A stretch of 64,000 nucleotides of DNA from Gammaproteobacteria bacterium (GTDB lineage Bacteria > Pseudomonadota > Gammaproteobacteria > Ga0077536), in NCBI GenBank assembly GCA_020849475.1, contig JADLGE010000083.1, positions 1 through 64,000 of the forward strand. The letters run 5' to 3'. The notes beneath the pieces were generated by a model. It was not told the DNA's origin, searched no databases, and saw only the letters and a list, made by a program, of their open reading frames with translations. Of the stretch, positions 60,389 to 63,839 are shown piece by piece; the first letter of the stretch is position 1, and each line of letters opens with the position of its first letter. A program made the translations under genes and the position numbers.

Positions 60389-60638
60389 GGTGAATATCCA
60401 AGGTGCGGCCCATTGCCGCGATGATCAAGTTAGCGCGCAGAGGCGTTTGTGCGAAAGGTCAGGCTGCCCGCCGCGGGCCGGGCATTTTGCCCGAGGGTCA
60501 CGCAGGCTGCCCGTCGCGCTGCTGTCGCTGTAGAGCGCGCGCCGGCGCGAAGTACCTCACACAATCCGTCGGCGGCGCCCGCTAGCGCGTGGGTATACTC
60601 GAGGCACGGTGCAAGGGCGGGGAGTAGGAGAGGGAACC

Positions 60639-63098
60639 ATGGAACGACATCGTGCACGACCGCGCTGCCTTGCAGCCGCACTCGCCTCGGCGCTCGCGAC
60701 TGTTACTGCCGAGGGCGCTGACCATACCCGCGAGGTCGTACGCGCGGGCGACGACTTCGGTGGTCCGGGCAGCGCCTTCACGTCTTTCATCGCGCCCACC
60801 ATCAACAATGCCGGCGCGGTGGTGTTCAATGCGCGTCTTGCCGGCGACGCCATCACCGGGGCAAACAACAGCGGCGTCTATCGTTACCAACTGACTGCGC
60901 CCGCGTTGCCGGTGGTCAACGGCTTGGTCGAATTACTGCGCGAAGGCAACTCGTTCGCTGCCGGCAGCGGCGCACTCACCCCGGCCGACCTGTTCCTGGC
61001 GCGCGTACAGCTCGAGAAGCCGGTGTTCAACCTTGCGGTGCCGGTAGTCGGCAAATTCGACGCCATCGCGGCGCAGGTGCGCACCGTCGGTGGCCTGGCC
61101 GCGGGCGATTCGGTCATCGTCGTGGAGGAGCTCAACCTGCCGGGGTTCGCGCTCGCCGGTGTCGAAGGCGAAGACCTGCCGGGTGGCAACGGCAGCTTGC
61201 GCGATCTGGCCGGTTTCAATCTGTTCGGCGTGGGCATCAACGGTGAAACCGGCTTCTTTGCCGCGATGAATAACACCACCGGCGGCACAGCGGACGACAC
61301 CGCGCTGTTCCGCTATCAGAACGGTGTGCTCACCGAACTGGTACGCGAAGGCGATGCGCCCAGCGGCACGACGCTCTCCGGCGTGTTCTCGCCGCGCATG
61401 AACCGCACGGGTGAAGTGGCCTTCCTGGGCGGACTCGCGAGCGGCGACGTCACCACCGACAGCGCCGTGTTCCGCATCGCCGGCAATGGCACGGCGACCT
61501 CGCGCATCGTGGTCGAGGGCGACGCCGTGCCCGGTGGTGATGGTGAATTCGGCACGTTTGGCGAAGTGAGCATCAACGGCGCGGGCGATGTGGCATGGAC
61601 CGCGCTGTTGCGCAACACCGATGGTCTGCCGGGCACGCCTTTCGCCGGCAGCACGGCGCTCGACGACAGTGCTCTTTATCTAGCGCGCGCCAACGGCACG
61701 CTGCTGCAACTCGCGCGGGAAGGTGACGAAGTGAGTCCCGGCGGTGCGCGCCTGGGCGCGCTGGCCGATGCGTTCAGCGGTGACGTGCCACGACCGAGTT
61801 TCAACGACGATGGCGCGGCGGCCTTCCGCGCCGAGCTGTTCAATGGGGACGCCGAGACCAGCACCGGCATTTTTATCGCCGCGCCTGATGGCCTCACCGA
61901 GATCGCGCGCAGTGGTGCGGCCTACGACGACGGCCTGTTCGGCAGCTTCGATCACCCGGTCATCAACAACCGTCGTATGGTGGCCTTCAAGACCGAGATA
62001 GTGGCCGGCGATGTGAGCGGTGAAGAAGGCACGGTGCCCGTCCTCGAGACCGCGCTGGTGGTCTCCGACGGTATCGATTTCGCCACCGTCGCGCGCGAGG
62101 GCGATGTGCTCGATGGTGGCACCGTGTTCGACATCGACTTCAACGCTGACCCGACCGGGCCGTCCAATGGTTTCGACGATCTCGGACGCGTCGCCTACCA
62201 GGTGACCTACGCGAACGGCGTGCGCGCCATCAACGTGTGGACGCCACGCGCCCTGTGGCGCGGCAGCTTCGCGCCGCCCGATGGCGAAGCGCAGTGGGAC
62301 GACGCGCACAACTGGCGTTTCGGCATGCTGCCCGGCGCGGCGCAGGATGCCGATATCGTCACTACCGGCGGTGTCATCCATGGCCCGGGCCACGACACCA
62401 CGCTGGCCTCGCTGACGGTGGGCGGCTCCACCCGTCTGCTACTCGGCAGCGGTGGACTCGGCACCATCGGTGGCTTGGCCATTGGCGCCGACGCGAGTGT
62501 AGAAGGTGGCGGCGCGGTGTCCGGACCGGTCTCCAATGAGGGCGCCATCCATGTCACGCCGGGCCACGCGCTGACCATGAACGGCGAACTCGTGAACGGC
62601 GGTGAAATCCGCGTCGACGCTGTCGCCACTGTGCGCTTTGCGGGCGGCTATGCCGGCAGCGGCTTCATCAGCGGCGCGGGCGCCAGCCTGTTCGAAGGTG
62701 GGCTCAGACCCGGCGACAGCCCGACGCTCATGCAGGTCGAAGGCGATATGGTGCTCGGCGACGCCAATGAGACCGTGCTCGAAATCGCCGGGCTGGCGCG
62801 CGGCATGCAGTACGACGCGCTGGACGTCGGCGGTCATCTCACGCTCGGCGGCTCGCTGCGTATTGCGCTGCTGGACGGCTTCCAACTGGCCGCGGGGCAG
62901 AGCTTCCTGCTGTTCGATGCCGGATTGCTGGACGGTGGCTTCGCTGACCTGCTGCTGCCCGAAATTGATGGCCTGACGCTCGCCTGGGGGCGTGACTCGC
63001 ACAGTCTGCGGCTCTCGGTGCAGGCGGTGCCGGTGCCGGACATGGCCTGGATGTTCGCCGCTGTTGCCTTGTGGATGCACCGCCGCCGGCGCCCTTGA
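60639..63098 (+). CDS. Secreted tandem-repeat (NxxGxxAF-type) protein with C-terminal sorting-like tail
   Basis: Repeats NNAGAVVFNARL, NRTGEVAFLGGL, NGAGDVAWTALL, NDDGAAAFRAEL with LVREGD units; tail VPVPDMAWMFAAVALWMHRRRRP. Confidence 0.82.
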   Translation: MERHRARPRCLAAALASALATVTAEGADHTREVVRAGDDFGGPGSAFTSFIAPTINNAGAVVFNARLAGDAITGANNSGVYRYQLTAPALPVVNGLVELLREGNSFAAGSGALTPADLFLARVQLEKPVFNLAVPVVGKFDAIAAQVRTVGGLAAGDSVIVVEELNLPGFALAGVEGEDLPGGNGSLRDLAGFNLFGVGINGETGFFAAMNNTTGGTADDTALFRYQNGVLTELVREGDAPSGTTLSGVFSPRMNRTGEVAFLGGLASGDVTTDSAVFRIAGNGTATSRIVVEGDAVPGGDGEFGTFGEVSINGAGDVAWTALLRNTDGLPGTPFAGSTALDDSALYLARANGTLLQLAREGDEVSPGGARLGALADAFSGDVPRPSFNDDGAAAFRAELFNGDAETSTGIFIAAPDGLTEIARSGAAYDDGLFGSFDHPVINNRRMVAFKTEIVAGDVSGEEGTVPVLETALVVSDGIDFATVAREGDVLDGGTVFDIDFNADPTGPSNGFDDLGRVAYQVTYANGVRAINVWTPRALWRGSFAPPDGEAQWDDAHNWRFGMLPGAAQDADIVTTGGVIHGPGHDTTLASLTVGGSTRLLLGSGGLGTIGGLAIGADASVEGGGAVSGPVSNEGAIHVTPGHALTMNGELVNGGEIRVDAVATVRFAGGYAGSGFISGAGASLFEGGLRPGDSPTLMQVEGDMVLGDANETVLEIAGLARGMQYDALDVGGHLTLGGSLRIALLDGFQLAAGQSFLLFDAGLLDGGFADLLLPEIDGLTLAWGRDSHSLRLSVQAVPVPDMAWMFAAVALWMHRRRRP

Positions 63099-63245
63099 GG
63101 CCGGTGGGGCGTCGCGGTTCTCCATCCTTGGCCATGGCGGTCGCTAACGGCTGACGGTCTGCCGCGTCACGGCGCATGCTCGAACTGTCGGGCCGCGGCC
63201 CGGGTTTCGCCCTGCATGGGCACTATCTTCTGGAGGTGAATTGAC

Positions 63246-63839
63246 ATGACATCATCGAAATCACGCGAAGCCTGGGTCGAGATCCCGGGCCCGGCGAGCC
63301 ACAGTGAGCAGGCCGGCCCCTATGACTTCGGCTTCGTGCCGGCCATGGGACGGCTGCTGGCGGCTCATCCGCTCATCGGCCCGGCCTTCATGGCGCTCTA
63401 TGGCGCCGTCATGTTCGCCCCAGACGGCGCACTCAGCCGCGGTGAGCGTGAATTCGTCGCAGGCGTGGCCGCCGCTGCGCAGGGCTGCACCTACTGAACC
63501 GAGTCCCATACAGAATTCCTCCGTGTCGAGGGAGAAAGCCTGGAACTCGCGCAAGCCATCAAGCATCGGCGTTGGCGTGAAGTGGTCGACCTGACCGCCC
63601 GCCAGCGTGCGCTGGGTGAGCTCGCGGAAAAACTGTCGGCGACGCCGACCCGCATGCTGGAGCGTGACTGGCAGCCGTTGCGTGATCTCGGGTTCGATGA
63701 CCGGGCGTGCCTGGAAGTCGCGCACATCGTCGGTATCTTCAACCACCTCACGCGGCTTGCCGACGGACTGGGGCTCGAGCTCGACGCCGCCACGCGGGCC
63801 GCTGCCGAGTCGGGTGTGGCGCTGCGACGTCCGGACTGA
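63246..63839 (+). CDS. AhpD/peroxidase-related (carboxymuconolactone decarboxylase-like) protein with in-frame TGA (candidate Sec) at 63495-63497
   Basis: Same frame before and after TGA; ...GEREFVAGVAAAAQGCTY[U]TESHTEFLRVEGESLELAQAIKHRRW...LTARQRALGELAEKLSATPTRMLERDWQPLRDLGFDDRACLEVAHIVGIFNHLTRLADGLGLELD; CxxUxxxH matches CxxCxxxH. Confidence 0.8.
63511..63545 (+). promoter_or_regulatory. Candidate bacterial SECIS stem-loop
   Basis: UUCCUC (63516-63521) - CGUGUC loop - GAGGGA (63528-63533); loop begins 24 nt after UGA, G at second loop position; possible lower CAG/CUG helix. Confidence 0.55.

Follow-up and report, generated by a model that had tools for sequence, protein, structure and literature searches.

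The window analysed here is the 64,000-nucleotide stretch C83:1-64000 of a draft genome (5.40 Mb, 137 contigs, 96% complete, 2% contamination). Close to its end, two half-ORFs at 63246-63497 and 63582-63839 occupy one reading frame, with starts 336 nt apart. A reading made earlier from the letters alone had joined them into one 197-residue protein interrupted by a TGA at residue 84, and retranslation agrees: this codon is the sole stop between the ATG and the final TGA. It falls, as was also claimed, on the second cysteine position of a CxxC...H motif (C81-x-x-U84-x-x-x-H88), the active site reading C81-T-Y-U84-T-E-S-H88. Standard gene calling can in this manner cut an active-site selenoprotein in two. 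The third-position GC content is 0.78 before and 0.75 after the TGA, and 0.80 in the genes of the genome. The features of the locus and of the decoding machinery are collected in Table 1. Upstream of the gene, an 829-aa ORF (60609-63098, plus strand) ends in VPVPDMAWMFAAVALWMHRRRRP, which resembles a PEP-CTERM-type sorting tail.

Table 1. Features of the selenoprotein locus (window coordinates) and of the selenocysteine genes (contig C26)
Feature	Position	Strand	Remarks
GGAGG ribosome-binding site	63232..63236	+	9 nt ahead of the ATG; read from the sequence
AhpD-like/peroxidase-related selenoprotein gene	63246..63839	+	197 codons including Sec84; stop TGA 63837-63839
Glu69, first proton-relay residue	63450..63452	+	invariant in alignment; by spacing corresponds to Glu118 of M. 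tuberculosis AhpD and Glu36 of PA0269
Cys81, first residue of CxxU	63486..63488	+	invariant in homologue alignment
UGA at codon 84, place of the second Cys in CxxC, decoded as selenocysteine	63495..63497	+	TGA in 17/17 homologues and 3 distant paralogues
Lower stem round the candidate SECIS (CGAGU/ACUCG, CCA/UGG)	63500..63549	+	complete fold, ca. -16 to -17 kcal/mol
His88, relay histidine, four residues past Sec	63507..63509	+	invariant in homologue alignment
Family SECIS site, degraded	63507..63525	+	CAUACAGA-AUU-CCUCCGUG here, CACGCAGA-GUU-UCUGCGUG in the family; 3/8 pairs broken, loop G lost
Candidate substitute SECIS, UUCCUC-CGUGUC-GAGGGA	63516..63533	+	apical loop at 24 nt from the UGA, second loop base G
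selA	C26:35371-36720		596 bits
selB	C26:36765-38642		431 bits
tRNA-SeC, anticodon tca	C26:40006		above Rfam cut-off
selD	C26:41593-42522		424 bits

Fold and active site

The proposed AhpD-like/peroxidase-related identity is borne out by profile searches with the TGA read through. Against TIGR01926 (NCBIfam, peroxidase-related, AhpD-like fold; curated cut-off 81.8) the protein reaches 116.8 bits, and against the Pfam CMD profile PF02627 39.2 bits. The AlphaFold model of the readthrough protein (pLDDT 91) is all-helical and matches the PDB structures 6k40, 2prr, 2oyo and 3c1l with TM scores of 0.74-0.80 by query; the Foldseek E-values to the first three are in the 1e-9 range.

The active site follows the Glu-(11)-Cys-x-[His/Tyr]-Cys-x3-His relay of the AhpD/CMD fold. 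In PA0269 this relay consists of Glu36, Cys48, Tyr50, Cys51 and His55, which correspond to Glu118, Cys130, His132, Cys133 and His137 of M. tuberculosis AhpD (PMC3141380). The five residues of PA0269 are spaced identically (Glu-x11-Cys-x-Tyr-Cys-x3-His) to Glu69, Cys81, Tyr83, position 84 and His88 of the window protein, all invariant in the homologue alignment. Because the spacing is exactly equal, selenocysteine can be placed, at the level of sequence, where PA0269 has the cysteine adjoining the relay histidine.

The product is most likely an all-helical thiol/selenol oxidoreductase of the TIGR01926 kind. By analogy with AhpD, Glu69, Tyr83 and His88 would relay a proton so that Sec84, corresponding to the attacking (peroxidatic) residue of M. 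tuberculosis AhpD, attacks a peroxide or a similar oxidant. Cys81 would then resolve Sec84 by forming a selenenylsulphide, and this bond may be reduced by a thiol donor of the cell. No AhpC partner is seen among the immediate neighbours of the gene.

Selenocysteine machinery and its use in the host lineage

As the sequence-only reading had stated, the window holds no sel gene, and its only tRNA is a tRNA-Gln. The genome nevertheless carries the full set, selA, selB, tRNA-SeC and selD lying together on contig C26 (35371-42522), and UGA 84 would be decoded as selenocysteine by these components. The genes selA, selB and selD themselves end in TGA, so that elsewhere in the genome this codon is an ordinary stop. 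An ORF situated between tRNA-SeC and selD (L065:14007-15509) resembles, by eye, a fusion of MsrA, a thiol domain and MsrB in the cysteine form.

The same genome contains 21 CMD-domain matches, two others of which also have TGA at the second cysteine. One is the CMD-fold gene C51:58878-59453 (minus strand; L082), with the motif NACHYUIPTH. About 16 genomes of the genus and family are listed as having an internal TGA in genes of this type, whose SECIS loop GGUC at +21 is invariant across the 14 genes that were read. The other is the CMD-domain gene C119:1362-1904 (plus strand; L089), with NQCSLUMK (CSLU). For this type, nearly all matches among genus and family genomes are listed with an internal TGA, and the CxLU motif with a stem-loop was read in three loci. 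With their conserved TGA codons and stem-loops, these two gene types argue that selenocysteine decoding is in use in the host lineage.

The window gene itself has no second copy in the host's class, the one hit among 369 genomes being the gene itself. The best other matches are at most about 36% identical, and those that were read are cysteine forms. As the gene was found in none of the sampled relatives of the host, its distribution suggests lateral gain or patchy retention.

Conservation of the in-frame TGA

Seventeen relatives with 51-66% identity were retrieved by scanning 84,980 species genomes. Six peptides served as search patterns, one of them QGCTYCTE, and if anything these patterns favoured cysteine forms. 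The sequence-only reading had proposed looking for cysteine at residue 84 in homologues; every one of the 17 has TGA there, an identical interruption rather than the scattered stops of a decaying gene. Record titles place the homologues in Binatota/Binatia, Acidobacteria, Deltaproteobacteria (Myxococcota in the tree labels), Actinomycetota, Latescibacterota, Gammaproteobacteria and unclassified bacteria. SelB is above cut-off in 13 of the 17 homologue genomes, all of which are MAG records.

In every pair with a homologue, identity is higher after the TGA (55-72%) than before it (42-60%), and by this comparison the part after the TGA is under constraint. A chance mutation on the catalytic cysteine, which the earlier reading had called unlikely, is excluded by the 17 identical codons, the higher downstream identity and the similar third-position GC on both sides.

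Three distant Binatota paralogues (L122, L123 and L124, peroxidase-related) also carry the TGA, within CHYUIVAH, CHYURSSH and CSYUTVSH, respectively. In the tree, 18 selenocysteine rows are split by a 100/100 branch from 29 cysteine relatives taken from the host's class. This topology is compatible with, and does not prove, a single origin of the selenocysteine rows; the separating branch is long and the root is not fixed. Neither the genome scan nor the tree yielded a cysteine version within the clade, which is apparently Sec-only. The gene context of the homologues, inspected by eye, shows no conserved partner outside Binatia, and no relative was found on viral contigs. In one Deltaproteobacteria MAG, a second CMD selenoprotein candidate (L050:6231-6603, CHYUIDGH) lies some 2.6 kb downstream from the homologue and has its own strong hairpin with a GGC loop at +26.

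The SECIS element of the clade

The 17 homologues and the three paralogues share a hairpin after the UGA, CACGCAGA-GUU-UCUGCGUG, whose loop lies 17 nt from the UGA with G as its first base and fits the bacterial model (PMC13188914). The GUU loop is invariant in 20/20 relatives. In L122 and L124 one pair has changed from C-G to G-C, a compensatory exchange that retains the loop. In the 17 homologues, synonymous choice at conserved codons +1 to +9 after the UGA is 88-100% identical, whereas at conserved codons elsewhere it is mostly 30-80%. This comparison, with its frozen synonymous codons and compensatory pair change, gives direct evidence that the coding sequence contains an RNA element. We relied on comparison because single-sequence folding is weak for any SECIS, even a conserved one, and short pieces were uninformative. 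An Rfam search at the locus found nothing.

A degraded site and a candidate substitute in the window copy

The window copy lacks the +17 GUU-loop hairpin of its own clade. The first loop base has changed from G to A, the sole such sequence among 21, and seven codons at +1 to +8 differ from the common choice (six synonymously, one from Ala to Thr). The sequence-only reading of a selenoprotein is supported by the sel genes of the genome and by the identical TGA in the homologues. The broken family SECIS, which had gone unnoticed there, means that the decoding signal is not the ancestral one.

Slightly further downstream, a candidate hairpin at +24 agrees with the published bSECIS rules for loop, stem and spacing (PMC13188914). 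Its upper stem alone is worth -5.8 kcal/mol, a value equalled or bettered by 3.75% (about 4%) of synonymous recodings. For the whole fold, 14.5% of recodings are as stable, which is not significant on its own. The candidate therefore beats chance weakly.

From these comparisons, the SECIS of the window copy has most likely shifted. Continued decoding with a shifted SECIS is argued by the protein after the UGA, which is as conserved as in other members, and decoding is probably directed by the hairpin about 8 nt further downstream. In broader terms, we lean modestly towards a case of natural SECIS turnover, in which a hairpin conserved across phyla was lost while UGA-Sec decoding was kept, either through the new hairpin or with little dependence on a SECIS.

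The main rival is that a former selenoprotein gene has recently lost its SECIS by erosion, that the UGA now mostly terminates and that decay has begun. It would account for a hairpin that all 20 relatives keep and the window copy alone has lost, loop G included, and for a gene whose absence from sampled host relatives makes it look dispensable or transferred. However, the codon changes at +1 to +8 take time, while the 113 residues past the UGA have stayed 55-72% identical to the homologues with no frameshift, no further stop and one lone change at otherwise invariant columns, and third-position GC remains normal after the UGA. We consider such a recent loss improbable.

A nonsense mutation, or a sequencing or assembly error, in a cysteine gene is very improbable. 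Although one base separates TGA from a cysteine codon, the same TGA in 17 independent assemblies and in distant paralogues refutes it in practice, the selenocysteine machinery is present and a cysteine version was not found in the clade. Code reassignment or a suppressor tRNA could also place some other amino acid at an in-frame TGA, which is least credible of all in a genome with a dedicated tRNA-SeC and selA, selB and selD, and reassignment was rejected since its ordinary genes terminate at TGA.

Taken together, the gene very probably encodes a selenium-containing AhpD-like enzyme in which UGA 84 is read as selenocysteine by the organism's own SelA, SelB, SelC and SelD, with the ancestral SECIS lost and probably shifted. 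Selenocysteine insertion in the cell, peroxidase activity and a thiol as electron donor are what we infer from this. Twenty relatives with one frozen SECIS and one homologue without it make a clean experimental pair, and the distance over which a bacterial SECIS can shift without loss of selenocysteine decoding at the UGA becomes directly testable.

Comparison with known systems

The closest solved structures, 2oyo, 6k40, 2prr and 3c1l, are uncharacterized peroxidase-related/AhpD-like proteins with the same fold as the window protein. They and PA0269 (2o4d, 2ijc) are about 25-29% identical to it and have cysteine where it has selenocysteine.

Membership in NF041238, the AhpD-related CFYUT (seleno)protein family, was rejected (63.5 bits; cut-off 175). 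That family has a homologous C-terminal AhpD core with selenocysteine at the matching place, and CFYUT occurs in several relatives of the window protein. However, the model spans 357 positions, of which the 197-residue window protein matches 215-342 only.

The sequence-only reading had pointed to a precedent in marine metagenomes, and it exists: AhpD-like CxxU selenoproteins were reported from the Sargasso Sea in 2005 (PMC1088965) and in GOS in 2008 (PMC2398784). A 2026 review and catalogue places them in TIGR01926 (PMC13188914). The kind of protein encoded in the window has hence been known since 2005, and it shares with the window gene the TIGR01926 assignment, the selenocysteine at the second cysteine and a stem-loop after the UGA. 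The present analysis adds a clade that apparently consists of Sec forms only, the SECIS frozen in it and one copy without that SECIS; by this lack the window gene differs from the published kind. Whereas the published reports concern marine metagenomes, the present clade extends across Binatota, Myxococcota, Actinomycetota and others, so that further bacterial phyla join a selenoprotein family first described from the sea.
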